Source: Euptelea pleiosperma (Eukaryota > Streptophyta > Magnoliopsida > Ranunculales > Eupteleaceae). Taken from it: a DNA stretch of 64,000 bases. The first letter of the stretch is position 1. Each line of letters starts with the position of its first letter. The stretch spans positions 45,161,893 to 45,225,892 of the forward strand of contig CM068544.1 in assembly GCA_035048495.1 (NCBI GenBank). Reading direction: 5' to 3'. This document shows positions 9,950 through 50,200 of the stretch, in pieces. The notes below the pieces were generated by a model. That model did not search any database, had not been told where the DNA came from, and saw only the letters and a program-made list of their open reading frames with translations. The translations under genes were made by a program, and so were the position numbers.

Positions 9950-10061
9950 ACGTGGTTGTTAAAGAAAACTACTAATAACGCAAAATTGAAAAAAGATAAA
10001 ACACAAACAAAAAATCGGTGTTCGCTTAATATTTTTATTTCCTACCAATAAAACAATAAAC

Positions 10062-10340
10062 CAGTGTTTGAAAACTCGAAAACTCGACTCGAAAGTCTAC
10101 CGAGTTAAGTTGACTGGAAGACTCGAACTCGACCCGAAGTAACCCGACTTGAGTAATATACTAATATTTTATTCGATTATAAAACAAATCGTTTTAGAAA
10201 CTTATTTGGTGCGTCAATTATAAAACAACGGATTTGGTGCGTTGTTTTTCACACACCAAGTCCGTTGTTTATTCGATTTGAGTTTATTTCGAGTCAACAT
10301 GGCCAAATTTTGAGTTGACTCGACGAGTTTTAAAACACAG
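10062..10340. mobile_element. word-array foldback element, word ACTCGA, 8-bp TSD
   Basis: The exact 8-bp repeat caataaac flanks it (10054-10061 and 10341-10348). Ends are cagtgtttgaaaactcg and, in reverse, ctgtgttttaaaactcg. The inside is made of ctcga/tcgag words (aactcgactcgaaag; gagttgactcgacgag). The middle has its own hairpin (aacggatttggtgcg and caccaagtccgtt). An 8-bp duplication with a CA-type terminus is the mark of hAT elements. It is non-coding. Confidence 0.85.
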
Positions 10341-10348
10341 CAATAAAC

Positions 10349-11430
10349 TAGAGTTTCCAAATTAAAATTTGTACGTTTCTTTCAAGTTTCTCATATTATT
10401 TCCCATACGTTTCATCAGCGTTTCCAAACCCATTTTGAGGAAATCGTAGTGCAAAATATAATTCTTGCTAACTATGGACTTGAATGAGCTTTAATTGTAG
10501 TCGGTTCAAAGAGAGGAAAAATCATGGGCAGATTGGTCGGGTAATCGGTTAGTAGGTAACCCATTGACCCCGTTACTTTTATTTCGCTGCCTTTACAGCT
10601 ATTTTACCACCTTAATGACAATAACGCTAATTAACAGGCTTTATTTAATGAAACCCACCGTATCTAGTCATGATTAACGGTACATGCGAGCATGTAATCC
10701 GGGTTGCTAGCACTCATCAGGGCATGCCCGAACAGTATGCAGATGTCCGTTTAAACGGTTACACACTTTACAGCATCATTGCAGTTTTTTAAATTGCTGA
10801 CACGAAATATCGAGAAAAATCGAATTTTAATTATATTTTAAGTTTGACAATGCTTGACCTGGACGTGATTTTAAGTTTTTAACCCGTGAAATTCTTGAAG
10901 TGATGTTCAGGGAGGCAGGGTCAACGTCCGGTTTCTTATTCGGCCGATTTAACACAAGCAATTAAGCAAAGCTGTTTGGATTTTGGACGTATGTAGTCCA
11001 GGCTGAAAAGCCAACCCGGTTTTTACAAAACTCCGAGATTCCTAGACCGATTTGACTCGGTTCACGTCCGTTGTTTTCTAGATTCAGATCTGTTTCTCGC
11101 ACCCCTGCAATCCAAGGGTGTTAACATGTGGACCAGAACAAACCCTTGTAGTGGTCCTCTGACCACTCTAGCATCTTTTGTTAAAATAAAATAGAAGACA
11201 AGATAGTATCTTCTGTTGCTGTTCTGCCAGAACAGTATATTTTGAGTTTCAGTTTTAGTTCTCAAGCGATAAGATAATGACATAGAGGGTCAAGAGATAC
11301 TTTATCTTTTTTCCCCCTCTTTTTTTTTTCACAGAAACTTCTTCGGAAACATTTAATAAAGTGTAATTAGTAGTTTGAGGGCCTTTTGTGTCTTTTAACT
11401 TATTCAAACAGTACAAACTGCCCCTCTCTT
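10349..11430. other. intergenic, no gene seen
   Basis: No open frame with recognisable content and no repeat ends. 10560-10900 is ordinary AT-rich sequence; 10900-11130 is somewhat richer in GC. Confidence 0.5.
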
Positions 11431-11432
11431 CT

Positions 11433-12115
11433 AGGGCTGGCAATGGATCCGGTTCAAGTCGGATTGGTACTGATCTGGTACTAATCGATATGATTAGATT
11501 AGATCGGTTACGGTTCTGATCTAATGCGAATATATATACATATATAATACCTTTAGGTATATATTTAAATACCCCTAGACTATTAAATATATATCTATAT
11601 AATATATAGTATAGATCAAGGTTTAAAAGGAACCATTATACAGGTATAACGGACTAGGGCATTACTGTTTTTTCTGTTACAACGGATTGTAACGCTCAGG
11701 AGCAAAAATGGAAAATAACGATGAATAACGGAAATAACGAAAAAATAGTGCTGAAATTCAAATTTTCAAAACAATGAAATACAACAAAAAATAATGACCA
11801 TTTTTTCAAACTTTTTCAAGAAAATAAACGGTAGTTATTTTCGTTATAATGGAAAATAACAATCGTTATGTTTTTGACGTTTTAACGGTACGTAACATAA
11901 CATAACGGAAGAGGTATGAATCCTTTGCAACGACCGTTTTTTAAACCATGGTGTAGATATTAGGTTAGTATCATATTGGAATAGAGTCGATCTAGTACTG
12001 ATCCGACAAGAGATTGTATCGATAATCTGTGATCCGATACTGATCTGATAACAAAAAATAAAATTTCAGACTAAGTTCTTTTAGATCAGATCTCCGGGTC
12101 GATCCGATCCGTTCC
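11433..12115. repeat. word-array foldback, word GATCCG/GATCGG, split by an insertion
   Basis: Words such as gatccgg, gatcgg and ccgatcc occur in both orientations at 11440-11520 and again at 11985-12110. Between them lies a complete AACGG element with its own target duplication (11617-11950). The left edge aggGctggcaatggatcc and the reverse of the right edge are similar, but I could not find a target duplication for this outer element. Confidence 0.6.
11617..11950. mobile_element. word-array foldback element, word AACGG, 8-bp TSD
   Basis: Ends are caaggtttaaaa on the left and tttaaaccatg on the right. The flanks gtatagat (11609-11616) and gtgtagat (11951-11958) match in 7 of 8 positions, a slightly decayed 8-bp target duplication. 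The inside is packed with taacgg and ccgtta words (tataacggactagggc). It is inserted in a GATCCG-word element. Confidence 0.8.
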
Positions 12116-12490
12116 ACTAGCCTCTACAAAAATCTTCCAAATTTACCCCTTACGTAAAAACTTTCCCATTTTGCTAAAGAATTAAACAGGGGTAGTTGTG
12201 TCATTTCATAAAGGAGAGATTAGGGTCATGAGATTGTTGGGGTAGGGTAAATGGGTTGGTCACTTGGTGTAGGAGGTGTTAAATAGTAAAGTGAAACCCT
12301 AACCCTAATAATAATAAATTTTGTTTTTTTTTTTTTTGGGTGAGTGGTAAGCGTTATGAGGCGGGTATTCATGTAATTGATACAGGTGGCAGGTAGGTTG
12401 CATAGAAGGACAAATGTCTGCTCCAACCAAAGAGAAACGAGGAGGGGGATCCAGTTGGTTGCATAGCTTTAGGGTTTCTTTTTCTCCTCT

Positions 12491-12500
12491 TTATATTTAT
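12491..12500 (+). promoter_or_regulatory. possible TATA box of the 12827 gene
   Basis: ttatatttat lies about 330 bp before the start codon, followed by a pyrimidine-rich leader. Position and context fit a core promoter, but no transcript start is visible. Confidence 0.35.
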
Positions 12501-12649
12501 CTATTTATTTCCCCTCTTTTCTTTTCAAAGCCACACACCCACACACCCACACTCTCCTTTCTAACTGTCGCCTAAAACACCCCCCTGAAACCTTAATAAA
12601 CCTGTTTTCGCTTCGACATTCTCTCACACTCTCCTCTTACCTTCAAACC

Positions 12650-12711
12650 CCCCCTCTCTCTCTCTCTCTCTCTCTCTTTCTTTCTCTCTCTGTCTCTCTC
12701 TCTCTCTGCTT
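12650..12711. repeat. CT-rich tract in the 5' leader
   Basis: A long (CT)n run broken by a few other bases lies about 115-175 bp before the start codon. Such tracts are common in plant 5' untranslated regions. Confidence 0.8.
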
Positions 12712-12826
12712 TTTTTTTCTTTTCATTGGGGCCCTGATTCTTGGTTATTATTGAATCTTCTCCGAGCAGCAACTGCCATCACTCAACCCTCCCCTTCATA
12801 TACCTTCTCCGATTTTAGGGCTTCTG

Positions 12827-14638
12827 ATGGCTTTGGACTTGGACGACGGAGAGTTTTGGCTTCCTTCTCAGTTTCTTACGGACGACGATATCTTAATGGA
12901 GAAAAAGAACATCAGCAAAGGGCGAAATATTGAGACTGAATCAAGATTTAGCTTCCCAAGTGAGTTCCCCTATGGGTTTGGCTCTTATGGGTCATCTGCT
13001 TTGAGCTCTCCTGTTGAGTCGGTTGTGGGGTCGACCGAGACAGAGAGCGACGAGGAGGATTTTCTGGCTGGGTTAACTCGGCAGATGGCTCACTCCATGC
13101 TTCACGAAGTTGAGAAAACCGTTGGCCCTTCTTTTGGTGCTGAGAATCCCAAGGTTTGTTGTGTTTCTTGAATAGGTTAATGGGTTTTTTGGTTTAAATG
13201 GTTGATTTCTTTTGAGGGTTCTGATTTTTTGACTTTTTTTGTTGCTGTTGAAGACGTGGGTTATGGCTGGTTCACCGCAATCGACGCTGTGCGCGGTTGG
13301 AAGTTGGTCGGGTTGCAGCGCCGGTTCAAGCCGTGGTAGTCCAAACGGCCCATCACAGGTTTCGTCGCCTCCCTCGACGCCGATGAATGGTAGGGATGAT
13401 GCTTGGGATTTGCTTTTCGCGGCGGCAGGGCAGGTGGTCAGGATGAAGATGAACGATGAAGGCCCCAAGTATCACCACGGCAGGGGTCTTCTAGGTCCTC
13501 CTCGGAAACCTACTCCAGTCTCTGCGCCAGTGAAGAACACTAATGTTGGGTTTTACTCGAGCCAAGCTATTACTCAACAGCAGTTGCAGACGAATCAAGT
13601 AAGCTATCTGGGTTTTGCTTAGTTGGGACAGAGAACACAAGCAGTAGCTTCGTCTTGCTTATAATCTCTTGGGTTTTCTCCTTTCACAGTTTCAACAGCT
13701 GAAACAACAGCCGTGCTCCGCTGTTTGGGGACGGCAAGGAAAGGTACCTCCGACTGTTCAGCAGCATCAGCAACAAGTACAGAGAGCGAGGTCTGTTGCG
13801 CTCGGAAATGGCAGATGCGGTCGCCCTCTTGGCTTATCTTCGTCGGTGTGCCCTACTCTGCAACAGCAACAACAAACGGGTTCGGGTATGCGAGCGGTTT
13901 TTCTCGGAGGATCCGGTTCAAGAAGGGAGTCCACTGGAACCGGTGTTTTCTTGCCTCGCAGAATCGGCAACCCTGCCGACTCACGGAAAAAGCCAGGTAA
14001 ATTTCGGTATTTTTCATTAGCTCACGCATTTTTGGAGGTTTAGAACCAACCGGAGGGCTAGTTTTACCCAACAGGATCTTGTAATTGGGAGTTCTTGGAT
14101 TTTTCTCCTGTTTTGGCGTGACCCCAGTTTGCTCTATTTCCCTAATTTTACTTCGTTAGTTTATGGCTAAATCAAGAAAGCGTTTGAAGTATTTTTGGTG
14201 GTTTCTCTCATTCTTCTTATTTTGTAATAACTAGGTACCCTTGTTGTTAGGGTATTTGATTTTGTCTCTGTTCTTAGTATTCTCACTTTTTTCTTGTGTT
14301 TTCTCCAGCGTGTTCGACGGTTCTGCTTCCTGCAAGAGTGGTGCAGGCCCTGAATCTCAACTTCGACGACATGGGTGCTGCTCAACCACGCTTCAATGGG
14401 GGTTTCGGTACAGAACATGGTAAGCATCACTTGTTCTTCACCCCACTTTTTTTTTGAACTTTTATACTGGAAATAAAGTTGTAAAAGAAGCGAGTGCGCT
14501 GATTCTTACATCTCTATAATTTCCGCAGATGCTCAGATTGCTCGAAGCAATGCTATTCTGTCGCAACAGAAGCGCAACTTCCGTTCCCAGCCTGCAATGA
14601 ACCATGAGATACGCCTTCCCCAGGAATGGACCTATTAA
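12827..14638 (+). CDS. plant protein of unknown function, 399 residues, five exons
   Basis: Exons by reading frame and GT-AG borders: 12827-13153, 13254-13598, 13690-13996, 14309-14419, 14529-14638 (1200 nt, 399 residues plus stop). The phases join without a break. The start is the first ATG in the leader that opens this frame; it gives MALDLDDGEFWLPSQF. Visible blocks: an acidic stretch with TETESDEEDFLAGLTRQM at about residues 70-87; GSPQSTLC and WDLLFAAAGQV in exon 2; a glutamine-rich middle; TGVFLPRR in exon 3; CSTVLLPARVVQALNLN in exon 4; and LPQEWTY at the very end. No transmembrane segment or signal peptide is evident. I recognise the block order as that of a conserved land-plant family, but I know no proven function and do not assign one. 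The ESDEED stretch could be a casein kinase 2 target (inference). The 3' region has a GAA repeat at 14822-14849. Confidence 0.85.
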
Positions 14639-16295
14639 CCGCCTCTCAGTACCTAACTAATCTCTTACAGTTACTGATAGCGTTGTTTTGTTGGATTGTT
14701 GGAGGAAGAAAGATGCTAAGAAGGAAGAAAGACCAACAAGAGGGAAGGTGGAAGTTTAGTATAAGTTCGTTATAGTGGATTTTGTATTTTAATTTTGGGA
14801 AAAGAAGAAAATACTCAAAACGAAGAAGAAGAAGAAGAAGAAGAAGAAATGTTTTTTGTAGGGTTAGAAGAGAAGAATAAGAGTCCTGTTTTGTGGAAGA
14901 AAGAGAGATACAGCTATCTGTTGGTTTGGGGTAGTAGGCGTTTTTGTAATAATTCTGTAATGCTAGTCTTGGAAGAAATGGGGGTGGTTTTCGTTCCTCT
15001 GTTCTTGTAGTCTGGTTTTTTTTTTTTTTTTGAAATTTCAGAGTTGAGGAGAGGAAGATAATATGGATGACCCTCCTCTTTAGACCACCCCCACCCTACC
15101 TACTGTCGCCGGAAAGAAATAAGTGATATATAAAATATAATTGCGTTTTATAATGTTCTTTTGTTTTGTTTGACGGAGAAGATGAGAAATTGTTTGTTTT
15201 TCCAAGTATAGTGAGCACTGAGCTTTGGTGTGGAAATCCAGTCTGTGGTTTCTGTTCTGATGGGACAATGTACCGGTTTTCATGGCGCGTTTAATTTTAT
15301 TGTTCTTGGTTCTCTTTTTTTAATATTCAAATTTGAAAGTTAAGCCTTTAGAGGTAGAGAAAATTGAAATCTGAGCTGGAAGAAGGTGGATCTTTAGCGG
15401 GAAATAGCTGGACTCTGCGCTGATCGAGGGGGGCAATTTTGTCGAGAAAACACTTCTTTTGAAGCTTTAGCAAGACCACCATCCCGAAATTGAAAATTGG
15501 AATCTCTCCCTCTCAGTCGGTGTGTCCGGCGTGTCTTTCTTTTTCGACTTATTAATAAAGTAATAATAATAAAGAGAAGTGAGAGAAAGTGGAGGAGCGG
15601 ATGCTTCGGCGTGAAGCGTTGTGGAATCGATGTCTTACGCCGTCTGATTGTGGCGGACGCATGGCTCTCTTTATCCTCGTGTCTCCTTTAAAGCTGTCTT
15701 TATATGATTCGTCTCACACTTGGGGAGTCGGGTCATGTGTGTTCTCATTCTTTTTTTCGGTTGCATGGACTCGGTAAATATCATTTTTTATTTTTTTTTA
15801 TTTTTAATTTTAGTTTAAATCAAAATGCCTAATCTACCCTTGATACTTGGGGGCCGTAATCTACGCGAGTTTGTTGGTCCCGCAAGCCGTTGTGCCGGTT
15901 GTGGTGGTGTTTATTTGATACACACCTGGACTCCTTTTTTGAATACTAACCAGTAACCACCACTATCCAGTCCACAGTCCACACTACACAACAGTGGTGG
16001 GCCATTATTAGGAGAGGGAATCTCCTAAGATTCAGATTGATTCAACGACTTTATTTGCCTTTCTAATAGGATTTGCCTACCCGCTGGAAATGGAAGGTCC
16101 CGTCCATGTTACAGCTCAATTGAATAAGCCCAACTGCTTTTGTTGAAGACGACCATCTCAATTGGTATTTTGGTCAGACAACTTAATACGCCTAATTCTG
16201 AGCTTTAACGGACTGTACCATTTGTGTAATGGTTGTGGATGGAGATGGATTGACAGATGTATATCTAAAGAATACATCTGATCTGGTAGATGTAG
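14639..16295. other. 3' flank of the first gene, then intergenic
   Basis: 14639-15080 is the likely 3' untranslated region, with (GAA)n at 14822-14849 and T-runs at 15018-15031. From 15080 to 16295 I see no gene or repeat end; 15790-15815 is T-rich. Confidence 0.5.
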
Positions 16296-16485
16296 ACCTT
16301 TCTCAAGCCTCGGAGTAAAGATTCCATCACAATGGGATTGCAAATCACACAAAACACAACTAAAAAGCAAAAGCACATGGGTACGTTGCAAAAGCACTTG
16401 TGTACGTGCGGAGAACTCATTGGCTGTGTTTTGTGTGATTTACAATTTCGTGTGATGGAAGTTTTAGTCCAAGCCTCGTATCTCA
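16296..16485. repeat. foldback repeat, arms 'aaatcacacaaaacaca'
   Basis: The left arm (ttccatcacaatgggattgc and aaatcacacaaaacaca at about 16319-16362) is the imperfect reverse complement of the right arm (ctgtgttttgtgtgattta ... gtgatggaag at about 16424-16464). It forms a stem of about 60 bp. No target duplication found. Confidence 0.65.
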
Positions 16486-16497
16486 AAATGATTACCC

Positions 16498-16842
16498 ATG
16501 TAACAAGCTGTAGCTCAAACTCCCACTTTCCCCATGGATGTTTAGCCTACTCCTTGGTGGATATATATACAAACCAAAAATCACCATGATTGGTAATCTC
16601 TACCCACTAAATTTTACTACTTTTTATGGCGTGATTCTTGCCCTTGGATGCAACCATTTTTTTTTAGTACTTTAACGGATAAAAATCCCATCAAACAAGC
16701 TTATTTTTAGTGTCAATGTCTATCAAGGGTGGGCTATGGGCTAAAAAAACATCCATGCGGTCAGTAAAGCCCACATGGGGAGCGGCGAGTTACAAAAATG
16801 GTGCTAGCTCAAACCACAAGTTTTGGCTACAGCTTGTTACAT
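16498..16842. mobile_element. foldback element with TGTAACAAG ends
   Basis: Ends are atgtaacaagctgtagctc and, in reverse, atgtaacaagctgtagcc, 17 to 18 bp almost perfect. Inside are the core arms (catggatgtttagcctactc; gggctaaaaaaacatccatg). The element at 54978-55363 has the same ends. No protein, no clear target duplication. Confidence 0.75.
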
Positions 16843-17455: not shown

Positions 17456-17639
17456 CACCGAATCACCCTCCAATGATCTGTCTATCTTGCGCGAGTCACG
17501 CAACTGCCCGACCAGTCACACTCGTACACATTGGCCTAATGACCTTCGTTACTTGTCTCCGCAAGGTTTTCCTGCAGCTCAGCTACATTCCAGAATTCTA
17601 GTAAGCCAAGGAGAAATTTTTCTCTCTAACTTGGAAGCT

Positions 17640-18448: not shown

Positions 18449-18449
18449 T

Positions 18450-20213: not shown

Positions 20214-20221
20214 CCCACATA

Positions 20222-21167: not shown

Positions 21168-21850
21168 CATGGTTTAAAAACGGCCGTTATAAAGAAATCA
21201 GACAACCCCCCGTTATGTTATGTACCGTTAAAATGCCCAGAAAATAATTGCTGTAATTCTTCCGTTATAACGAAAATAAAGGCCATTATTTTCGTTATTT
21301 TATTTTTTTGAAAATTGGAAATTCAAATTTGAAGTCCAGTTCCATTTTTTCCGTTATTTTCAGATATTTTTTCATTTTTTTCCATTTTTGCTGCTGAGCG
21401 TTATAACGGAAAAAACGGTAACACACCCAATCTGTTATGCCGTTATAATGGCCCCTTTTAAACTTTGCTTTTTTTTAAAGGAGGCTGTTTTAACGGTTAA
21501 ACGGACTGGGGGCGTTTCCGTTTAAACCGTTTAAACGGATTGAAATGGTTGGGGGTAAAAATGGAAAAAAAAACGGAATTAAACGGATTTTAACGGAAAA
21601 AGTGGCGCTGAAATTCAAATTTTGAAATTTGAAAATTAAAAAAAAAAAAGGAATTTAACGGATTTTAACGGAATTAAACGGGTTTAATGGCCTTTTTTTC
21701 ACAAAATTTTTTAAAATTAAATGGCTGTTTAAACGGTTTTAACAGCCGTTAAAACAAAAAAACAGCCATTTTTTTCAAAACCGATACAACGGGTTTAAAC
21801 GGAAACGGGCTTGGGGTGTTACTGTTTAAACGGCTGTTTTTAAAACCATG
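21168..21850. mobile_element. composite word-array foldback element, words TATAACGG and TTTAAACGG, 8-bp TSD
   Basis: The exact 8-bp repeat ctttagag flanks the whole block (21160-21167 and 21851-21858). The ends are catggtttaaaa and tttttaaaaccatg. The left part (to about 21475) is built from gttataacgg words. The right part (from about 21480) is built from gtttaaacgg words. Each part is a foldback of its own, so one has probably landed in, or been fused to, the other. AAACGG is the motif that maize Ac transposase binds (established knowledge). No coding capacity. Confidence 0.85.
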
Positions 21851-23599: not shown

Positions 23600-24213
23600 A
23601 ATGGAAATAACAGCTGTTGCAATGAATATACATTTTCTAGACATTATAACGGGAAAAATGTAACGGGGTTAGGGTGTTTCCGTTAATGACCGTTTTTATT
23701 GTTGTAACGGTCATTATTTTTTGTTACAAAGTTAGTTTGTTAGACCATGATGTACGTTGGTAAAACCTCTCAAAATTTTTATTTGGCTTAACAATGTGTA
23801 GCTTTTATTTTCTTTAACCCAAATTTATTAGGTTGATGAGAACCGTTCATGTTGGGTTGCCTGATTGGATTGCAGGTCAGTCCTGCGGTGCCAAAGAGGG
23901 AGTTGATATCACGCAATACTGATACGCCACAGTGTCAATGTTTTAAATGTCACCGTTATGTCCGTTATAACAGCCTTATTATGATGGGTCTCATCAATCA
24001 CATCAGAGTAAAAAAATAAGAAATATTATCTTGTAATTATTTTATTTTCCACGACATAACCTTAGTAAAATAACAGATAATTAACAAAATAATTGCCATT
24101 ATTTCCATCATAAAAGCAATTATAATGCTAAGCCAATTTATTTGGTTTTGGACAACGGAACGGGGTTGGGGCATTACCGTTATAATGGTTGTTACAATAT
24201 ATTTTAAAAACCA
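23600..24213. repeat. two AACGG-word foldback fragments
   Basis: 23640-23745 holds taacggggttagggtg and the reverse gttgtaacggtc. 23936-24213 starts caatgttttaaa and ends tttaaaaaccatg, the clan termini, with ccgttataac words inside. The flanks of the second (cacagtgt and tttttaca) do not match, so no target duplication can be claimed. Confidence 0.6.
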
Positions 24214-24636
24214 TGTTTTTACATTACAACCGGCAAAAACCATGATCTAGCGGATCAGTGGTAGTTGTGCAGTTGAGACCATTGCAGTATAATGGTCAAT
24301 GGCCTCAACCACAACTTTTTTTTTCTTTCCCGGGAAGGAACGCATGCGTATTTCATACCATGGTAATCAACGACTTTGTGGGCAGTCACAGTGGAATCGT
24401 GTAACAGCTACTTCACGTGATCAAGATCAACTGAGGAAAACTAGTCTGCAAACGTTTGCAGCTAGAGCGTTTAGCCCATCCCTTTGTGGATCCACACCCT
24501 AAAAATCAGCCTGATTGATGGTTTTTACCTGTGATTTGAGCTATTTTCATCATGGGCTTGGAGAACCCATTCATGGGCCTATTAAGAAGTATATGATAAA
24601 AATGTTCAAATCCATGGTTAGAATCCACGAGTAAAC

Positions 24637-28300: not shown

Positions 28301-31300
28301 AAATGTGATCACTTTCCATTTCCAACACAGCTATAGAGAAAAGTTATTGTCATTTAAGATATTTAAGCCTAAGGAACTTATAGGATTGGTTGGGCATTTA
28401 CCTTATGTAACAGGCAAAGGCAATCCAATAAGAGATGTCTTGGGAAAAAGCAAGATGATACTGGGATTGTTAGAAGGGATTCCCACCATGTTGAAGGGTG
28501 AAGTAGCAATGGTATTCTCTCTAATGTTTCTAAACTGATTATATTTTATATTGAAACTGTACTCCTCTTGATTCATTAAAATATAGAATAATTTAGTGAA
28601 AAGCATCATTATAGCTAGGAATTCTTGAGGAGAGTATTGTTGCATTCTGAGACGAACTTTACCATTGTCAAAACTATACGTGTAACTGCATTTTCCTCTT
28701 GTGCAATTTGCGTTTCTAAATGGCAAGAATTGAATTCTGGTAGAGTCAAATTTATTTATTGTTCTTATAAAAAAAATCTATTTATTGTTCGGTAATTGTT
28801 GGTAGAATTGATTTGTTTCTTCCTGGGAACTTATCAAAATTGGTGTGGAATGTTTGACTTAAGTGATCAGAATTATACCCTTACAAATGCGTAAGATTAG
28901 AAAGCCATTTAACTATTTTGCTGCTATAGTTCTTCAATCTTGGATATAATTTTTATCTTCGGCATTTAAATATCTTTGTTTCTGGCGTGTGATGCGGTGT
29001 CTGGAGCTTTGTTTGTGGCACTAGGTCTTGCACAGAATTGTCAATTTGTTGTCTTTGCTTGGGTCCCCCTTTCTTTGATAACTTGACGTTTTTGTGTATT
29101 CTATGCATTATTAAAATGAATCATGATTGTAGGTGCAATATTTTTTTGTTGCTCAATCTGTCATTTTAGATCAAGGTATTTAATTTTGACAAAACATCCG
29201 AAATTTCAGTCTGGGCATACCGAAATTGAAACTCCTCTAATTTTGAAATTTCGGCTAAACTATTACAATACTAATTGAAAAGGAGATAAAAGATCATTTT
29301 TCAATTAATTAAGGCATAATTCAAGATTGTGTTATGTTAGAGATATTATTGAGATTGGAAGATAAGATTTCGTTTCTATAATTAAGGGATATTGTAATCT
29401 CATTAGCTGTAATTGTTCCATGATTTCACTGAAATTTCAAAATATCTCACAAAATTTCGTTTTCCATTTTGGTTTCGACCAGCGCCGAAACCTGGTTGAA
29501 ATTTAAATTTTAATCCTTGTGTTAGATAGATGAAACATTTCTGATGAACATGTTGGGAGTATGGTGTCAGTGGGTCGGTGAGGTCATTCTGTACATAAGC
29601 CACCCAAATTCGTTGAGCCTTGTGCTCTTCCTGACATTGTTGCTTAAAATCCACTCAAGCATTTCTTATCTGCCTTTGGATTTTCTTGCTATGGTATGGC
29701 CTCATTGACTTCATTGTTTAAAAGTGTGACTCTTGAACCCAAGGGTTTCACTTGGCCCCGATTCGTGTATCTGAACTATGAGAGGCGGATCTTGTCAAAT
29801 TGGCCCAATGTAGTTGACAGATTTGTGAATTAGTTGTGTTATATTAGAATTGGACTAAGCAGAGTAACAAACATGTATATATTATCAACATATTCACAAA
29901 GTCTAGTTTCATCAATTTGATAATTAATCTTATCTCTTGAGCCCAGACATATTTGAACAGAAATGCCAAATGGTTAGATGTGTGATTCATAGAAGGGACC
30001 AAGGTTCTATGAAAATGCAATAATAACCATGTTGCTTTAGATTGCTTGATTTCTATTTCATTTAATACAAGATGCTGCTGTGTTACATTAATACATATTT
30101 TTGTGCCACACATATTAAGGAAATAGGTACATCATACTAACGAGTATGCAAAAAGTGAAAGTTGTTATGCATGAGACTTTGTATGGTACTGGTGTGCTCT
30201 ACTGCAATTTTGTGTTCTATGTTTTAATCTCTATATTTTAATCTATGCATATAGTATTGTATAGCTTTTTCCTTAATTTGGTAGTAAAGCTTGCTGGTAG
30301 TTTGATTGCTTAATGTTAAAGAAAAAGTAGTATACCATTCGAATATCTGAGCACTCACTACTATATATGTATGGATTGGACACCTCATATCCCCAATCCA
30401 TGTCCATCCTATGTTGTTAATTAATGTTGTTCATACAATGTCTCTTCTTTGGATTTCAAGTTTTAGTTTCATGGAGTTAGGTTTATGTGGAAATATATCT
30501 GTAGGAGTATGGATGTTTTTGTCAAGATAGATATAAGGATTATTAACTGTGAAGTAGTGCTGCATTATAAGCAGTTTAGTTGATTACTTGGAGATTAGCT
30601 GTTGTCATCTTTGAGATTTCTGTGTCCCATTTAAACAAATTATTTTTTATTATAGTTTGGAGAGAGAGAGAGGGAGAGGGGGTATGTCTCTGTACTCATG
30701 TGGTCCTTAGGTTCATATGGGATATGTCTCTATACTCTTTATCACACTTGAATAACATAAGATATGTCCCAACCTGAGATCTCTTAATGTTACAAAACTA
30801 CATAATTGAAAATGAATAATATAAATATTGTTTCTATCATAATGTAAGGAAGTGTTTGTGCATTGTGTGTTTTGAAGCCGCTGTTTCGGACACCTCGTAT
30901 TTTTTTGGGACACCGACACATGTCAGTGTCCTTGTTGCATAGCTTAATTTAGTTGATTACTTGATTTAGTACTTAAAAGATCTTTCTCTTGACCCATTTC
31001 AAATTTTGTGTCTTCTTTTTTATCTCAGTTGAAGATGAAACCTGAACTGCACTATGGTGAGGTTGATTGTCCAGTTACAGTTTCGGAGAGCTTCCCCAAA
31101 CATGATGAACTTCATTTTGAGATTGAGCTGATAGATTTCTTTAAAGTTAAGGTCAGGAGTATTACATTACCAATGCAATCTGCTTAACTATTGAGAATTT
31201 GATGAGATAGAATCTTGCACCTTTTAGTATTTTATGGCATTTTGAAGACATTTCTTGCGGTTTTTATAACTAGTGTTACTTGTTCACGATCTATGGAAAC

Positions 31301-34300
31301 TTGTGTGCTTGGTCCAAGGCTGCTCTCTTGTTCTAGACATCTTCTATGGTCTATACCTTGATATTGTAACCTTCTATAGTGATCATATTGTATGATATGA
31401 ATAAAGATCCTAAGGTTACTTTTTGTAAGAGTAAAGGCCATATTTTTTGGCCTCATCAAATTTTTTGTGCCCTGCATCTTCTTTATGAGGACTTGTGCAA
31501 GTATTCATCCATCTTTCTTTGCTTTCACTACAGATCTCTATTTTGGTGCTGGGCTCATTTTTGAGTTCTTGAAATTTGAAAATTATGTAAGTTTTATCAA
31601 GTGACTAATGACCGATTCAAATTGACTACTCACCAAAAAAAGATTCAAATAGACTACGAACCTAACATCTATTCATTATTTTTTATTTTAGCTTTATATT
31701 TACAGTCGTCCAATCGGTTTGGTATTGACCTAGAAGACATCCTAGGTGGGTCAGATCTAGCATTGGTTTTGACTCCTGACCCTAGTTGATAAGTTTGGAT
31801 ATGGGCAAAAGTTCAAGTATAATTTGGTTTTGGGATTCAAAAATCTGGCCAATACTTCGAGGAATGACAAAAGTTCGCAACATCATTTGTTTGTCTTTAA
31901 TACGGTTTCGAATAAAAAAATTGGGACAAAAAGATGTGTAGAAATATTTGTTTATGTGACTACACATGCATAGATTTATACACACACATATTGGCATACA
32001 CCTTTGTGTACACAATACCCAAATATGATACCATACAACGCATTTGTTTTACCCTAATTCATGTATGCAATATAAATATCCATTTATAAGAATCACACAT
32101 ACATGTAGATGTTATTTATAGAGTCTTATTTGAGCCTAGGGATTTTTGAAGCTAGGTTCTTTGAGTTTTGTTGCGTGTGTTTAAAAATACTTCCTATGAG
32201 TTTACAACTTTATAAAATTATGAATGAAAATTTTAGAGGGAAGCTTAGAGAGCTTATCTTCTCGAAAAACGTGTTAGTCGGAAAGCCGCTACAGAAGCTT
32301 GAGAAGGGGACACACACTGGATCCCTGATACGGCTGAGGGAAAAAACAAACCAGGAAATCAAAATCGCTAGTGTTTTGCCTCAGGATTGATCCACGGATC
32401 GCGCAGGAATGATCTATGTGATTTCTTTTAAAGCTCGTGCCGTCTCCGGATGCTCACAAAACCATCTTAGATTGGAATTGAGCCTCTAGGGGACAACAAA
32501 ACATGCCCTAGAGTTAACATGCTTTGATACCATGTTGTGATTTAGATTGTAACTAGTAGAGGAAGATTTACAGAGAGAAGAAGGGAAATAGTTGTGGAGG
32601 TGAAGAGGGAGATTAGGGTTAGAGAAAAGATATGGGAAAGAGAAGAGGTTGAATTATGATTTAATCTCTCTCAAACTTGGTATATATATGTGGGGGGGGG
32701 GGCGGACCGCTACAAGCCAAAACCATGGAGTTAAGTGGTGGGCCCACTTAACTCCCACAAACATAAAACGTGGGTTAAGTGGCCCTCCTAGAAGTGAATA
32801 AAGGGATCCACGGGGGAAGTGGGACACAGCCCACTTATGGACACCCACGCGGGTGTACAACATAAATTCCAACATCATAGTCTGATGATGGTGATGAGGA
32901 CAACGACGACGACGACTGTTTGCATCCGATCTCAGCCACACTCTTGATGGGTCAGATCTGGGGTACACTATTTTTGTGCCATGGATTGCTGTTTTAGTAC
33001 AATTTGGTAAAACTTTGTTGATATGTGCCTAGGTTTAAACTATGGTAGTTTTAGATTGTGCCATTGTGGTTACCAGTGACCAGACTTATTGCACAAATAT
33101 ATTACAGTTGACTGTATGCTTAAGTTGCTCAGTGCAGCATGGAACTATACATTTGGTACAAAAGAAGAAAAGGTCTAATGTTCGTTGATTCATTAATAGT
33201 TATATAATTTCTGATCTCAACAATTGTCCCCTCATATGGTAATGAGATGGAAATTGTCCTTAAGCTGACGTTTACTTCCAACATTAGGGATTAGCTGGTG
33301 TGGTGCATCGAGCCTCTTTTCTAATTATAAACTTGGTTTTCTTTTGTTGTTTTTCAGGTTATTAGTGAGGATTTGGGAGTTGTGAAGAAGGTATTGCGAA
33401 CTATGATGAATTATTAAATAATTTCGTCATTTCTGTGTGAACATTTAGATTGTGTTTTTGCTGTCAGTAATAGGAAAACAAATTACTTGCAATTGAAAAT
33501 GGCATATACTTTCACATGTTGTACATGTACTGGAGATCTGGATGTTTAGCTATTATTCTAGCAATCTGCATATTAAATACATAAAGTTGCTTGCTTGATG
33601 AAAAATAGAAAAGCCCATTTTTGGCCATCATGATCTTTATAAGTCTTGGCTGCCAGTAGGTAGATCCCCATAATTTTTCAGTTACAGGGGCATTTATGTA
33701 ATTTGATTAAGTTGAGTCATTAAGGAGAGGGTCCTCTAGGGATGATGGTTACTTTGACCTACTCATTTTTTTTCTTACTTGAAATCTATGTAACTACGTG
33801 ACACTTTTACCGTTTTACAGTTTTTTGCTGTGCCAACATGTCCCGACGTACATCCAATAAGCATGCCAGTGCCACTCTTTATTTTAATGATTTTTCTTTT
33901 AATTTTATAAAAATGATTTCTAAAAGATGGCTGGTGTGTTCCATCCTCCATGCACCACTTTATCAAGTAAATCATAAAAATAGTTTTTTTTTGGGTAGGC
34001 AAGCGGGTTAGTGGTATCAACGCTCACAAGCCTTACCAACATAGTAAGATGGTAAACATAATTATAGTTAAATATAACAAGTTGTTTGATATTCTTCCTC
34101 TAAGTTTATGGTGTATGAAAATGTTTTCGTTTACTTTTCATATATTTCTGCCTATTTTTAATTGAAAAACCTTCTTATCTATACTATTATAAAGCGAGAA
34201 CCGGTTTTGACGTCCACAGGGCTTCAATTAAATGCCTCTCACTTTAAAGGCTATTTTAAAGCCAAAACCTGGGTTGGGGTACGACCGTTCACCAGCACGC

Positions 34301-35227: not shown

Positions 35228-38200
35228 TGTGCACGAAAAGCAAAAGGTTACATCGACAAGTCCCCCCAAAAAGAAGATGACTCCCACAAGACATGGCAAA
35301 AGGTCCCCCTTGCCATTGATTTATCAAATCCATAATGTTGGGGGAAAAGACCCAGATAAGATCTGTAAGATTAAGAATGAAGAAGTGATTAGCCAATTTT
35401 CCCTCCCTTTTTTCTTTCTTTTTTCCTTTTTCACATATGATGCAGACATGAGGCGATATAGCTTCTTCTCTTTTGCAATACGTCACGAGTGTTTAAGAGA
35501 TGCTGGCCACATTGAAGCCTTAACCTTGGAAGGAGCATGTATCATCAGCATTATCATCTACACATTACCTCAAATATTTGGGCTCTGCAACATGAGTCCT
35601 ATTTTGCCATTCAGCTCTATATATATCTTCTCTCAGGCATGCATCTTCAGACCTTTTCTTACTACCTCTATCCACGTCAGTTTCGGCATTCCTTTCTCCC
35701 TTCTACAACCTTTAACTTGCACCAAAGCGCACTTTTTCACTGGTGCTGTTGTTGTTCCTCGTTGTACATGCCCAACATACTGGCACCCTACACTAGTTCA
35801 TTAGTCACATCCTCACCAATCTCTCCATCTCTGTCGATAAGTAAACCTAAATGATGAAATTGAGTTCAGTTATTCATAAAGATGGAGGGATTTTGAGTAT
35901 GCAGTTCCCAAATCTTCTCAAGTAGGAAAAGCAAAGTAGGAGATTTTATCACTCCAAAAAAGAAAAGAAAAAAAGAAGATTCGAACATAACCATCAAGTT
36001 CAAGGGTCCGAACTCTCTTATTGATTTTGGAAAATAAACAGATTTGTTTATTGTTTTTAAGAGAATCCTAATTGAAGTCTCTAAGATCCTATGAAATCTA
36101 AAATTCCAAGAAAGTCTATTTGAGGATTAGGAAGCAACAATGAACATAGGATCATTTTTAGGGCCCACTATGCTATATAAGCATAGATGTTTAAGACGGA
36201 GAGAACTATCAACACCAAAGATCTTCCCAAAATTATTGTAGTTGAGGATTTACGCTTAGTATTAAGCACTTGCGCACATGGTTTAAAATGTCGGAATGTT
36301 TCGTATGTTTCGTTTCGTTTCGTAAGAAAACTCAATGTTTCGTTTCGTAATGTTTCGCCGAGACAAAACCGATATAATCCAAAAAAAAATAAAAAATATG
36401 ATTTCATGATTTTGGAATATATTTCGAAATGTTTCGGAATGTTTCGTAATGTTTGGAAGTTTCATTTTTTCACTATTTTTTCAATGTTTCGTGAATGTTT
36501 TCGTTTCGTTTCGGAGTTTGTCTCGGTTTTCACTTGACCAAGACATTCTCCGAAACGAAAATTTAAACCTTGCTTGCGCATAAGGAGTTAGGGAAGACTG
36601 AATTGGGTTTATAGCTGATAAAGCACTCTTCCACACTAAGATTGTTATAGACTTAAGTTTGAGATGTTCCAACATCCGTTTTAAATACTATAATGTTGAT
36701 GAATTGTTGCTCCAAAGAAATCCTAGAGCTTTACTTCCATGCATTGTATACTCTAGGTTTAGTTCTACCCATAGTTTGTTTGACTCAAGAACATGACCGG
36801 CAACCTGGGTAGTCATCTCGACTTTGGAGCTATGATATTGTGAGCGTGTGGAAAATCGAGCGTTTCATTGTCGTCGAATGACCTTGAGATCCACAATCTC
36901 ACATCATTGGTGATGGATGGTTGATCAAGGAACAAAGATAAAAAATACTAGAAATTAGATGGAATAAATACCAAAAAAAAAGACAAGGAAAGATGCAAGA
37001 GAACATGCAAGTAACATGGTTCATTGTCGGGCCACTCGACAATCATGGATGATCAATTATTGGCTTCAAATCCACTAAATTCTATTTTGATCATACAAGT
37101 ATTTCTCTCTCTTCCTTTCCCTTTTTTATACACATGATCTTTCCCCTTTCCCTTTTCCTTACAGTTTCTCTTTTTCTCTTCTCAGCCTATCCGAGAAGTT
37201 TCCCCTTTCTCTGAGATTTTCCTTTATTATCTCCTATTCTCTCTTACCTCCCTTCTGAGAAGGATCCCGTCCGAGAAGAACTCCCCCCTTAATTAGGAGA
37301 CATCCCATTTTATAGGTCATTTAGTTACCATGTATTGAAAATATTCTAACTAGCCTTTTTAAATGTAGCCTTGTGTTGCTTTACCTGTCATTCTTATAAC
37401 AAACGGTGAAAGGAAGATGTGAAGTGTTTGAAATGGGATACATGGATTTGGTGCTCCTAAGAAGAAATATGACAACATTCATTGTAGGTGCATGATGGTT
37501 ACGCCTTGGAGCGTACATTTTGAGCACTCATAGATACCTAGAACTTCAACTTGTCCTTCATATCCGTATCCACATGACATAAAAACCACCATGGTACCGG
37601 AGACTTCTACCTTACGATTTTCTAGTTTCCTAATTTATTATTAGTTATTTTCTTAACTCGTAACAATTTGTTCATTTTTTTCCAAGAAATATAAATATAG
37701 CATATTGTAACAAATCTTTCTATAAAAAGCTTTACAATATTAGAAGTCTCATTGCATTTGGCATGATTTAAATGCTAAAAAATATGCTCATTTTAAACTA
37801 CTAAAATTAAAGCATGGTATAGACATAATGAACGGGCCACCTATATTTGTATTCGTGACTTGGATTTTGTGAAATGAAAAATCATATTCTCGTTTCCTAT
37901 ATCAGTGTCTGCGTCCATATCTATATCCGGGCATCTTTGCTTCAGAGCCACTAAAGTTCGGAGTCTGTTTTGTAATTTTTAAATATAGGAAAGTAAAAAA
38001 GTATCTCAAATAATGGTTGGGTTAGAGCAGAAAATGCTTTTTTTCAATTGTCGAGAACTGTGTATTTTTCTGATTCATCGCATTCATCTAATGCAAAACA
38101 AATGACCCACAACTCATTGTGTTATCAATTACCTAAGTACCAATTCAATACACTTCAAAAAGATCTATGCACATTGAGCATTTTTGTGCTCAAAATCTTT

Positions 38201-44200: not shown

Positions 44201-47200
44201 TGTACCTTAAAAAAATAAATTTATTTCCTTTTTTTTTCTTCTTTTCCCATTCTAAATCATAGTTACATAATATTAAGCTATTCTAAATTGAATAAAAGCA
44301 ACAAAACATCTCTTTTCCCCTATATGAAATAAATTAATGTTATTTTTTCACAAATTTACCTAAATTTATCTTTTTTTTTTATTGAATTCTCCTATCATTT
44401 ATTTATTTTCTATTTTTTAGTATTCATTTAAAATGGCATGTTAGTGAGGATTATGCCCCACGCTTTAATCCATTGAAGTGCCTCGCCCCAGGCCTTCGCG
44501 TTTAAAATCATTGGGTTAGAGTGGTTGTTCCACTAAAGAATTTGGTTTTTTTTTTTTGATAAGGTAAACCTTTATTGAGAAAGAAAGGAGAAGGTACAGC
44601 TGGAGGTCGAGGAGACCTCCAAAGGAAACATAAACAAGAAAGTTAAAGACTATCCTTGCTCATAATGGAATCCCATCTAAAAACCATATCCTCAAAAGTC
44701 AAGCCTTTGCACTCCTCAAACAATTTGGACCAGAAGAAGAGATAGGTCTTGATAGAAATGACTGTCGAGGGTAGACTTCTCTTTGCCTTCGAAGATCCTT
44801 CTGTTCCTCTTGTTCCATATACCCCACCAGATCGCGAACGGCAAGAGACTCCAGAGTCTGCGCCCACAAGGATAGAAGCATCTAGCAGACCAGCTCCCAA
44901 TAGTCAGGCTAACTGAAGCATGGAGGATCCAGTACATTCCGAAAATGCCAAAAAAGAGGCCCCACACTTCCCTGGCTAACCTGCAATGGAGGAGGAGATG
45001 GTCGACGGATTCGCCCGTGTCTTTGCACATAACACAGTAGTTCGCTAAAACCCATTTTCTTTTGATCAGGTTATCCATCGTCAAAATCTTCTCGAGGGCG
45101 GCACACCAAACAAAGAAAGCAATTTTCGTCTACACTTGGTAAGTTAAAAAGTATAAAACTATGGATGTGGTAGAACGATTCCAGAGAAGATTGGCCTCGT
45201 GGAAAAGAGGGTATTTCTCAAAGGGTGGTAGACTCACTCTGGTTAAAAGTACCCTTTCTAACTTGCCTATCTACTACATGTCCCTATTCTCTATCCCGGT
45301 GGGGTCGCTAAGAGGATAGAAAGTATCATTAGAAATTATTTATGGGATGATAGAGAAGATAATCACAAGTTTCACCTTGTCAGTTGGTCGAGGATATACA
45401 AGACGAGAAGAGGGAGGGCTTGGTGTTCGCCAAATCAAGCTCATGAACAATGTCTCGCTTGGGAAGTGGTTATGGAGATTCGGTGCTGAACGGGAGAGTT
45501 TATGGAGAAGTGTGATCTCAATTAAGCACGACGTCGATACTAACGGTTGGGGTAGCAGGACCCCCACCTCTTCTTACGGGACGGGGGTATGGAGAGGCAT
45601 TTCCAAGATGTTGGGGGCGATCAGGAATGGTAGCACATTCAAAGTGGGAATCGGTAATAAAGTTAGATTTTGGGAAAAGAGGTGGTGTGGGGATCTTCCT
45701 CTTAAAGAAGAGTTCCCTTCGATCTATGCCATCTCAAATCCAAAAGGAGACTCGGTTCGTGCTGTTTCAACTTTAGAGAATGGCATCCTTTCGTGGGATT
45801 TGGGGTTAAGAAGGCAGATCAATGATTGGGAGGTGGGCACGGTGGCGTCCTTACTTAATCGTCTTGATGGGGTTAAGCTCTCGGATAGTGAAGAGGATAA
45901 AAGATGATGGATCAATGATTCAAAGGGTAGATTCTTTGTTAAATCCTTCTATAAGTCTCTCCTAGGCCCTAATTTGGTGTGCGATGTTGGATAAGATTAT
46001 GTCTGTGGAAAAGTTAAGAAAACGCGGCTTTCATATGCCTAGTAGGTGCTTTCTTTGCTGTGGTGAGGAGGAAACCACTAGTCACTTGCTCATTCATTGT
46101 AGTGTCTCAACGAAGATATGGGATAGCTTCCTCGGCCTCTTTGGTATGTCTTGGGTCTTCCCCAAATCGGTGTTTGATACCTTTGAAGGATCGTCCTCTA
46201 AGGCCTTCTCCAATAGTGGTCGTTTGCTTTGGAGGCTTACTCCCTTTGCCATTTGTTGGGAGTTGTGGAAAGAAAGAAATCATCAAACTTTTGAAGACAA
46301 GGAGGCAGGGTTGGAGGAGATACTCTTGAATATTAAAGTTACGCTTTATTATTGGGGTTCGGTCATTCCTGAGCTCAATGGGTTTAGATTTGAAGATATT
46401 TGTGTTCCGGTGGGATCGCTTGATTTCCTAGTTGTTGTCCTTTTGATTCTTTTTGGGGGTGGGGTTGTTGGTTTTTCGCCTTTTGCTCTTGCTTGTTGTT
46501 GTATTGCCTTGCTTGTTGTTGTATCGCTTTCTTTGGGAAAAAAAAAACTATGGATGTGGTACAGTAATAATTTGATTTTGATGAGTTCCAAACTTTGGAA
46601 ATGGAAGTATGAAACTGTGGATGTTATTGTTGTACTATTTTAATTTGATTACATGTTTGGAATTTGGATTTGGATATTGAAATGTGAATTGTCATAATTT
46701 TTGAAAATTTCCTTGATTTTTTTCTTCTAATTTTTACTCTATTTTTTTTGTATATTTAATTACTTATCTATTTAAAATTACATGCTTGAGAGCTATGTTA
46801 CCCGGATACGGCAAGGACACGGGGAGGATACGGCATTTACACTTAAAATGGAAGTATCCGACACGGATACGGCACCCATTTTTCAGTATCCGGGTATCAT
46901 AGTTTGAGAGGCTTTGGCTAGTGAAGTGCTTCGCCTCACGCCTTAGCATTTAAAGGCACTGCTTTATATCATTCACTTTGTTCTTTGAAACCAATTTCTA
47001 TTTGTTGGAATGGTAGCGGATAGTAGCAATTGAGGGCCTGTTTGAAGGATTTCAACTTTCAAGCAAAGTTCTTTAATCGTTAGGACTCCAATGTAGTTTT
47101 AGCCTTCAAGATTGACAGCCATGGTTAATGTATAAAGTATAAACTTCATTTCGTAGTAGCATTCCTGGTGTATTATATAATGTGGTAATTCTTTGCTAGT

Positions 47201-50200
47201 TAAATATGATTTATTTCCTATTGTACAAGTAGAAAAAGTTATAGCTCAGTTGTGAATTAACATATGAATAACATAAAATGATCATTAAGTACTTCTATGA
47301 ATGTATTAATTCAAATTTTGAAATAGACAGATAAAAGATTTATTGAAATTAATTTAACTAACACAAGTCAAAATTAGTTTCCTATTTGAAATTATTATGA
47401 ACTTTTCCTTTTTTAAGAAGTTGATTTAGAATGGGAAATCCAAGAAAGAAGCTGAGTTTAAATAGGAATTCAATTCAATATAACGTTAAGTATTATTGGA
47501 TGTATTAAACATGTTTAACATTATAAATTTCTGTATTATACCTATTATGCATTTATGCTTATTTATAGTTTTATTCATACGGTTAGGGCAATGTAGCAAT
47601 GGCACTGTCCGACACAGATATGAGATGTCTAACTCTAACAAGCTCTTTTAAGAAGCCTGACATGCAGACACGTCCAGACATGTGTTAAAATATAACATTT
47701 TAGTTTAAATCAAAAGTTTTTTTCATAAAGATAAGGAAAGAAATGTATGAAAAGTAAAAGAAAACATTTTCATACGCCATGGAGCTATCCAATAATATAA
47801 TAAATATATGTAGATTTATAAGAGAGGAAACTATCGAACAAGTATAGCTGTGTTTGAGAACTTAACCAAGTTCCGTATAGAGGGTTGAACACCAACTCTC
47901 TCTTAGAAACCATTTACTTAATAAAAAATCATTAAAATAAAGGGTGACACTGCCTTATGTTTCAGGATGTGTGTTGGGATGTGTTGACACGCGTGTCCAT
48001 GTGTCGACATGTTCGACACAGCAAAAGAACCCTAAAATTGCCATGTCCTTGTTACATAGGGTTAGGGAATAAATCGTGACTATTTGGCTCTTCGGCCAAG
48101 AAAGTCACTGAGGAATGCTACTATGATTTATCATATTCGTTTTGAGGTTGAGAACATGAATTCTTGGACAGAGGAGGCTCAGTAGCAACTATAACAGTTA
48201 AGTGCTTTGTTGTCAATCAAGGCATTTATCTGCTTCTACTTAAAAGCAGGTCTGCTTTTCATTAGGAGCCACCTTGCAGATTCTGGTTTCTGTCTGAGTT
48301 GCTGTAGATTGTGAACCATTACGGCAAAAGGTGAGCACATTAAAGGTGAAATTCAAGCGGTTCCCTGTTCCTGGGGATATTTATGACATGGATGCTGGAA
48401 ACTTTTGTGATATTGGGCAATCTGTAGAGGCTAGTAAGTAATTTATTGTACAAGATCTTTTACTTTAATTTCTGAGTTTTTGGTATGACTTGGATTTTAT
48501 GAAGATTTATTTGTCGATCTATCATGCTCCAAATCCCAGAGGGCAGATATATGAAATAGTGGGGCTTGCCCTAATAAATATTGTGGATTTATTTATGTTA
48601 AATTTTGGATGTAGAACGTCTAGCACATCTATTATACTCTTGGCTGGTTATTGACTTTAGCTCTTGCATACAAAATGATACTATTTGTGAGGTGTATTTT
48701 TGTGTGTTAGGTGCCCGAAGGACTTGAAATGTGTGTTCGTCTGATGCTGCCTGGAGAGATGGCTCTTGTCACATGCCCTCCAGATTATGCATATGACAAG
48801 TTTGCAAGGTTACTTTTCCAGACCAAGTTTTCTAATTTTTTTGATGTGCCAAGATTGCAAATAGAGTACAATCGCATGAACATAGTTTAGCTGACTATGA
48901 TTTTTCTTTCTCAAGACCAGGCCTGCAAACGTTTCCGAAGGTGCTCATATTCAATGGGAAATTGAGCTGCTTGGTTTTGAGATGCCAAAGGTAATCAAAC
49001 TGCTGTCTCTTCAGCAACTTTTTTTTGCTTTTACTTGTGAGATCGCATATTGGAACTCCTGGAACTATATAGTATGATATTCTGCGTTGGTTGATTAAGA
49101 TTGCATAGTGCATTGCTGCTTGAGTGGTAAGATTTGTTTCTATGAACTCCTAGATGTTCTAAGTCAAGAATCAGTTATTTTAGACTTCATTGCGTCAAAC
49201 TACATTTCTTATGCGTGACATAACCCATATTACAGGATTGGACTGGTTTAAACTTCACAAGTATAATGGAAGATGCTGATAAAATAAGAAGCACGGTATG
49301 AAGTCTAACTTCCTGTATTTCTCAGCCTTCTTATTGTTTCTCTTACACTTACTAGGTTAATGACTTAACGTGGAAAAACAGTCATTGCTATTGTGGCATG
49401 TCTTTTGTATATATGTTTTTGAGCATAATAATTTCTTTCCCAGTGGTATTGGCTATGTAGCTTGGATATTCATCTGTAATGCTTTAATGTAGAATTTAAA
49501 TAGTTGTTGTTGGGACAAGGTTTGGGAGGTGGATTGATTAGGTTAACTGTCATGAAAGAAACGTTTAACACTGAAATGCGAATTTTTCATTTTTCAGGGA
49601 AACAGGCTTTTCAAAGAAGGAAAGTATGAACTAGCTAAGGCGAAGTATGAGAAGGCATGTCTTATTTTTCTTCCATGCTGTCACCTTGTTTTGATAAAGG
49701 ATGTATTAATAACAATTGACTTTTCTGTATTAATGTTGCTAATAAGATGCTCACAATTGTTATAACTGTTTTTCATGGATGCAAAGTTGTCTCATGGTAT
49801 TGACAAGTGAAAGTCCAGATCCTTTCTTTGATTTGTCCCTTACAGTTTAGCTACGGAAAAAATAGAGGTACATGGGATTGGTGTCTGTGTGAAAATTGTA
49901 TTGCAATTTTGCAAGTACCTCAAGTAGTTGGTTACATTATCAGTCCAGGATACTTGATCTTCTAGCCATTTTGAGTGTGTGCTTTAGAAGTGGTCTCCTT
50001 GTAGACAAGGTCCACATCAAATTTCTTATTATTCTTTTATGACTATTAGGTGGTGACTGTTAAATTCATAATTTAGTATCCTATTATAGAGTTTCCTTTG
50101 TATGGGATGCAAAGGGAAAATTCCTCCAATGATTTAAGATATATTATCTTCTTTCCAGTCGTCCATATTCTCACAAATGATAATTTCTCAACAGGTGCTT

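Follow-up and report, generated by a model that had tools for sequence, protein, structure and literature searches.

A 64,000-nucleotide stretch of the Euptelea pleiosperma genome, hereafter the window, contains a series of short blocks that combine inverted tips with many copies of a short word. The question raised by this locus is what the words are. An earlier note on the same DNA had proposed that the blocks are hAT-like foldback elements, and that each displays the binding motif of a different hAT transposase. Our analysis, which draws on the window, on its genomic copies and on the hAT genes of the same genome, leads to a related reading: probably, the blocks are short non-autonomous hAT elements that consist largely of transposon end, and the words are predicted grip sites for the BED-finger transposase of each element's own family. 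We infer that the BED finger recognises and binds its word, and that these transposases mobilised the elements; with good support, the words may be taken as a panel of hAT transposase specificities.

Elements in the window

All seven blocks previously placed in the window are bordered by 8 bp target site duplications (TSDs), four of them exact and three matching at 7/8 positions, and their coordinates are correct in every case. The ends had been described as alike; inverted tips are indeed present in 7/7 blocks, and they form two groups. The tips of E1–E5 are CAWGGTTTAAA-like or CAGTGTTTGAAA, and those of E6 and E7 are CWATGTWAC-like.

The first block, E1 (10062–10340), is a hAT-type MITE with the word ACTCGA/ACTCG near its ends. 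It lies between two copies of CAATAAAC (10054–10061 and 10341–10348; 8/8), and its tips, CAGTGTTTGAAAACTCG and CTGTGTTTTAAAACTCG, match the 3' tip of the hAT gene L095. E2 (11617–11950; TSD GTATAGAT/GTGTAGAT, 7/8) is an AACGG-word element inserted into E0 (11431–12120), an older, previously overlooked element with an array of the word CCGATC; an 8 bp duplication belonging to E0 itself is not recognisable (5/8 by eye). E3 (21168–21850) comprises two AACGG-family units, E3A and E3B, inside one exact TSD (CTTTAGAG, 8/8): an E2-like stretch (21168–21467) and an E8-like stretch (21468–21850), back to back. E4 (29172–29519; TSD TTTTAGAT/TGTTAGAT, 7/8) carries the word AAATTTC(GG) and has the right tip CAAGGATTAAAATTT, the first 15 bases of which equal the 3' tip of the hAT gene L080. 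E5 (36277–36572; TSD CTTGCGCA, 8/8) is a TTTCG/CGAAAC array with a periodicity of ~10 bp. The last two blocks are E6 (46793–46902; TSD CTTGAGAG/TTTGAGAG, 7/8; tips CTATGTTACCCGGATACGG and CTATGATACCCGGATAC), which is an array of GGATACGG, and E7 (47589–48059; TSD GGTTAGGG, 8/8; tips CAATGTAGC and CTATGTAAC), the (C)GACAC words of which lie near the ends and are not significant alone. An eighth element, E8 (63558–63947; tips CATGGTTTTAAAAACGG and CAAGGTTCAAAGG), had been overlooked; it bears the word AAACGG, sits in another repeat, and shows no 8 bp duplication at its borders. Further AACGG fragments, also overlooked earlier, lie at ~5803–6018, 8540–8745, 23640–24215 and 59360–59985.

The seven blocks are non-autonomous hAT-type elements (MITEs): they are short (110–683 bp), non-coding, and present in many copies (copy figures were obtained for E1, E4 and E5). 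No hAT coding sequence was found among the window ORFs scanned with Pfam (8 of the 14 ORFs of at least 120 aa). In a protein search with a copper-transporter gene from the window, the named matches listed all belong to flowering plants. A blind scan of the window for 8 bp duplications with at most one mismatch and a TIR of at least 11/16 returned 38 hits, all seven blocks among them. The scan alone is no proof, because the number of C..G hits falls smoothly as the required duplication is lengthened from 6 to 10 bp (33, 22, 16, 8 and 2 hits); copies elsewhere in the genome are the better evidence for the TSDs.

These copies were sought in the 613 Mb genome from which the window comes. For E5, a first look gave 1371 candidate places, of which 40 were scored and 30 read; counting the window copy, 21 of the 30 loci have a TSD of 7/8 or 8/8, and those 21 copies are 272–314 bp long. 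The remaining nine (one at 6/8, eight at 0–4/8) are, by eye, mostly truncated or wrongly bordered. For E4, 40 of 149 first-look candidate places were scored, and the two further copies that were read have TSDs of 8/8 and 7/8, with TTTCG occurring 7 and 4 times. For E1, 40 of 632 first-look candidate places were scored; many match the outer parts of the element and leave a gap in the middle. Beyond this genome, viral contigs contained no match to a DNA pattern made from either the AAACGG or the TTTCG array (0 and 0 hits). An 18-base AAACGG pattern gave 11 hits in bacterial and archaeal genomes, against 7–8 reckoned by chance, and these contained no arrays (3–6 AACGG in ~620 bp, or 321 bp for one).

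The seven blocks had each been credited with a word of their own. Compared with half-overlapping window tiles of the same length, taken from outside the seven elements, repeated words are clear in five blocks: for the words of E1, E2, E3, E5 and E6, no control tile is as extreme. The word of E4 is marginal (6/336 tiles as extreme), that of E7 is not significant (36/249), and E2 and E3 share the same word. E2 and E3 belong to one family (68% over 339 bp), which also includes E8, and E6 and E7 have similar tips. Since E2, E3 and E8 share a word and E6 and E7 share ends, the window holds about five word families, or six including E0.

The label "foldback" does not describe these elements. Long inverted arms are absent, and the orientation of the words is mixed or one-way: mostly one-way in E2 (6:1), E3B (14:3) and E5 (14:3), and more mixed in the others. 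Inverted stretches are only local, the examples being one of 48 bp in E1 and one of 60 bp in E5. The least clear case is E3, because it is partially self-inverted (364 bp at 66%).

Words at the ends of hAT genes

The hAT genes of the same genome were collected through their dimerisation domain (150 of 589 candidates scored), and 64 loci were read downstream of the domain. Of these, 37 were filed in nine word groups and put on a tree. The other 27 were left off, nearly all of them having no clear array of their own; one, L107, has an ATTTCC array and a domain unlike that of the L072 group. The word labels were given after reading the arrays, not blind. Four loci (L086, L087, L094 and L098), with weak counts of their own, were labelled by their relatives, L069 was labelled by its matching tip, and L100 was filed by CGATAC.

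The 3'-end arrays of the nine groups are built from the words CCGAAAC (L074), CCGATAC together with CGAAAC (L099, which thus has two words), CCGAAATTT (L080), TGGAAAT (L072), CCGAGT (L092 and L095), CCGAATT (L089), CCGATT (L085), CCGATC (L046) and AGGGCC (L044). Seven of the nine group words begin with CCGA and differ in the tail that comes after it (-AAC, -TAC, -AATTT, -GT, -ATT, -TT or -TC). The arrays precede the tip, which is of the same kind as in the window elements and is placed at the point where copies of a gene cease to be alike. Copies are 81–98% alike as far as the tip, and the point of divergence lies within 5 bp of it in 12 of 14 compared pairs; the exceptions are L099–L100 (27 bp short of the tip) and L092–L095 (9 bp beyond it).

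The concentration of words at these ends was measured in the last 180 bp before 24 tips, against 961 control windows from the same loci. In nine tip regions, words are more abundant than in all but 0–3 of the controls; in a further 13, between 11 and 76 controls reach the same level; the remaining two (L086 and L094) are ordinary. Counts of the exact word are weak at eight of the 24 tips: L103, L092, L095, L085, L056, L063 (76/961 controls), L094 (442) and L086 (958). The top word contains a CpG at 18/24 tips, compared with 12% of controls.

On the tree of 37 dimerisation domains, the nine labels require 8 changes, which is the minimum, and 0 of 200 shuffles did as well; this association is in part trivial, as it comes partly through near-copies. 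Seven of the word groups each form one side of a branch, while CCGAATT and CCGATC are not single branches. Both zf-BED and DUF659 were found in all six open frames scanned with Pfam, the BED scores of L080 and L095 falling just under Pfam's cut-off. A complete, 6.7-kb element of L099 (G000:C4:5043136-5049871) has words at both ends, tips CATGGTTCAAAG, and an exact 8 bp duplication (CCTTCCAG, present twice). It encodes a BED/DUF659 transposase and, judging from its open frames, is apparently autonomous. In five other genes, no upstream array occurs in the sequence fetched (317–1257 bp), so their 5' ends lie beyond that sequence or have been lost.

Together, the group words bring up a tentative reading that we hold somewhat less probable than its opposite. 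BED/DUF659 hATs of this plant may have a fixed CCG(A) recognition core, with the following 2–5 bases changed repeatedly; as every group and its MITEs would repeat the site many times at their ends, the specificity of many BED fingers could be read from sequence as a natural recognition code. L074 and L099 would be an example: their identity is 76% outside the BED region and 70% inside it, and their words are CCGAAAC and CCGATAC.

Links between window elements and genes

Window elements were compared with genes by their tips (nine hAT arrays) and by shared 6-mers (eight arrays, without L085). The left end of E0 aligns with the 3' tips of L046, L047, L056, L063 and L069 (79–89% over 63–68 bp; best E 4e-16), and E0 shares 17/18 tip bases and an excess of 6-mers with L046 (z 5.1). 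E1 is closest to L095, with 14 and 15/18 bases at its two tips (next best, 11) and a 6-mer z of 3.9. The right tip of E4 matches L080 at 15/18 bases (16 in a sister copy) and L072 at 14 (15 in the sister copy); its left tip matches L072 at 13 and L080 at 12 of 18, which is about equal, and its words score hardly separably with L080 (z 2.0) and L095 (z 1.9). E5 lies close to three genes: L080 by its tip (15/18), and L099 (z 2.8) and L074 (z 2.3) by its words. E0 and E1 thus match particular genes by both tip and word, and E4 matches by tip, its words being ambiguous. Plain blastn at 1e-4 finds no match of E1, E4, E6 or E7 to the hAT loci, and a single match of E5, to 53 bp of L103; it is therefore by tip and word that E1 and E4 are linked to their genes.

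Among the 64 hAT loci read, of 589 candidates, no partner was found for the AACGG family (E2, E3 and E8), E6 or E7; the best tip matches are 12/18 for E2/E3 and 10/18 for E6/E7. The proposed panel of specificities is partly supported: different transposase groups have different words, and the AACGG family and E6/E7 have no partner among the genes read.

The arrangement that best fits these observations is one in which an element would consist of (i) an inverted tip, and (ii) repeated copies of the site gripped by the BED-finger transposase of its own family. Each group of related hATs would keep a version of the site peculiar to it, in most cases CCGA with a tail that varies between groups, and in that case the arrays would record changes in DNA specificity among related transposases. 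By analogy with Hermes and Ac, multimeric transposases most likely dock on the arrays through their BED fingers, and elements that are mostly array may compete well for transposase.

A looser connection, which we regard as rather unlikely, is that every one of these transposases recognises the same CCG(A) core, with tails that have drifted to no effect on binding. The CCGA core of seven of the nine groups is in keeping with this, as are three further observations: the tip of E5 is nearest to L080 while its words are nearest to L099 and L074, those of E4 hardly distinguish L080 from L095, and L099 has a second word. However, in several groups the tails are uniform across many words—L074 has CGAAAC 13 times in 180 bp—and drift would have blurred them.

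Position, composition and known systems

Compared with 20000 random placements, words lie closer to the ends than expected in E1 (3 placements as close), E7 (115), E4 (241), E3A (377) and E8 (391), and not clearly so in E2 (1600), E3B (3517), E5 (4187) and E6 (4208). The words of E1, E4 and E7 lie near the ends, with hardly any inside, and in E1, E3, E5 and E6 a first word touches the inverted tip or overlaps with it. A word periodicity of 9–11 bp is seen in E3B, E8 and E5 (a level that no control tile reaches) and in E2 (17/1357); it is weak in E3A (107/1379) and absent in E1, E4, E6 and E7. A general 10 bp phasing rule was accordingly rejected.

Simple-sequence slippage would make the words microsatellite-like expansions in ordinary hAT MITEs, unrelated to binding. 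The tandem runs of E5 (5 and 10 bp) and of E3 and E8 (~10 bp), together with the variable length of the E5 copies, are of the kind that slippage leaves. Yet the words occur in both orientations at irregular spacing, a CCG core is common to unrelated elements, words are found where transposase genes end, and these are genes whose copies remain closely alike up to the tip, and in E1, E4 and E7 they are nearly confined to the ends; we consider slippage improbable. Least probable of all is that the words are sites for host proteins (transcription factors, methyl-CpG readers or CGG binders) kept for element expression or silencing: CpG-rich words in a CpG-poor genome could draw such proteins, also to non-autonomous elements without a transposase of their own, but within this single genome the words differ from one transposase group to the next, which one host protein would not explain, and the first word meets the inverted tip in four elements.

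The preferred reading, that of transposase grip sites, has counterparts in known systems. The tip sequence of the maize element Ac is CAGGGATGAAA, and the window tips differ from it (CAWGGTTTAAA, CAGTGTTTGAAA and CWATGTWAC). Ac/Ds elements resemble those described here in their short inverted repeats and non-autonomous members, many of which have subterminal AAACGG; this hexamer also occurs in E3 and E8. Counted over whole elements, there are 13 AAACGG hexamers in E3, 11 in E8 and only 2 in E2, such that E3 and E8 have the at least three copies that mark Ac/Ds-type elements, although in these two the words run through the whole element rather than lying subterminally. In addition, no transposase gene with AACGG ends was found among those read here. 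According to one study, Ac transposase binds AAACGG copies cooperatively; the same study reports that the Ds-l3 and Ds-l4 elements tested were immobile despite their AAACGG hexamers, and that some Ds1 elements move without them (PMC3260210), results that count against reading the words as grip sites.

For Hermes, published work describes several BED domains of one assembly taking up the subterminal repeats of the left end, the phasing of which to the tip matters (PMC10368747). There, interior repeats are considered probably dispensable, and no binding of the right-end repeats was observed (PMC10368747); both points likewise count against the grip-site reading. More generally, subterminal repeats vary from one hAT transposase to another (Herves, PMC3143072; Kat1, PMC4763223, where the role of the repeats is the authors' speculation). 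Tag1, Herves, Hermes, Kat1 and Tol2 share with the present elements short subterminal repeats, particular to each hAT, that are bound by the transposase or affect it (PMC3143072, PMC10368747, PMC4763223). As far as these sources extend, they concern single elements, not a panel of related transposases in one genome. Another parallel is provided by BED proteins of the CGGBP/hAT-19 type, both hATs and hAT-derived (Yellan 2021, PMC8097297), the motifs of which mostly contain CGG and differ from one another; for four hATs, the motifs match subterminal regions of their own element (PMC8097297). Those proteins come from animals and one fungus and their binding was measured, whereas ours are DUF659-type hATs of a plant and the words are read from transposon ends alone.

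Plant hAT MITEs, as treated in a survey of 207 genomes (PMC12550479), are similarly short and multi-copy, are classed by TIR and target duplication, and are widespread. The survey takes TIRs as transposase binding sites, and its text does not use the word "subterminal". Among the best hits of full-text searches, which covered few subscription papers, no title or abstract opening describes a set of hATs typed by their words within a single plant genome. That hATs recognise differing subterminal repeats has been published before, and the present genome would be an unusually rich instance of it.

Should the words be binding sites, then a single genome holds some nine hAT groups with their sites written out many times. 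It would follow that (i) a recognition code for BED zinc fingers, a domain also present in hAT-derived proteins, could be derived directly, and (ii) an orphan MITE could be traced, by its tip and word, to the transposase that moved it.

A further testable feature is control of binding by methylation, given the CpG in most words. It had been stated that nearly all words hold CpG; this is true of most, the group words of L072 (TGGAAAT) and L044 (AGGGCC) being without it. With an observed/expected ratio of 1.07–2.7, CpG is enriched in E1–E6; the ratio is 0.63 in E7, close to that of the remainder of the window (0.61). Among the one-base variants of the words, those in greatest excess in E1–E5 and E8 are ones to be expected from CpG decay. 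The AACGG elements contain 30 CpG-decay neighbours of their word (7.3 expected) and 34 other neighbours (20.4 expected), and E4 contains 11 (1.2 expected) and 2 (2.5 expected), respectively; non-CpG neighbours are enriched in E1 (10 versus 1.3) and E5 (13 versus 7.5) too. Finally, among the 30 E5 copies, transitions are about twice as frequent at CpG columns (0.113) as at other C/G columns (0.059).

Structure of E3 and spacing of its words

The AACGG-family element E3 (21168–21850) consists of two related elements joined end to end, with a single exact 8-bp target duplication at the outer borders of the pair and no duplication between the two joined units. This arrangement resembles a composite or double-Ds structure. 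In two word families, the words recur with a period of 9–11 bp, approximately one turn of the helix: AACGG in the second unit of E3 (21468–21850), and CGAAAC in element E5 (36277–36572). This period is not present in four other elements of the window.

Word arrays in hAT genes and in other repeats

Five hAT transposase loci elsewhere in the genome (L044, L048, L050, L051 and L053) form a group marked by the tip CTAGGCCTGTCAAAGGGTCGGG and a GC-rich array of AGGGCC words, both located about 300–520 bp past the hAT domain. The group falls outside the CCGA pattern seen in seven of the nine transposase word groups.

An internal AACGG array is also carried by a separate repeat, characterized by CACGGCACTCTCC and AAAATTGGGTG, at 8361–8995 and about 59279–59699 in the window and at the hAT loci L064, L080 and L105. 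The array's position within the repeat is constant across several loci, as though a piece of an AACGG element had been taken up by the repeat.

Other repeats and genes in the window

The stretch at 33787–34190, which starts CTATGTAACTACGTGACAC, is a possible decayed relative of element E7 (47589–48059); the sequence interrupting it looks SINE-like. Open frames with zf-RVT domains (44716–46643) are probably LINE remnants. Two Ctr copper transporter genes lie on the minus strand (54117–54584 and 61544–62023); among the matches listed for the second, the named relatives are flowering plants (e.g., Citrus, Coptis and Tetracentron). Other inverted-end repeats (53412–53680, 54996–55345, 62680–62950 and 63138–63408) frequently have palindromic borders, such as CCACGTGG, and numerous partial copies of them occur in the window and close to hAT genes.
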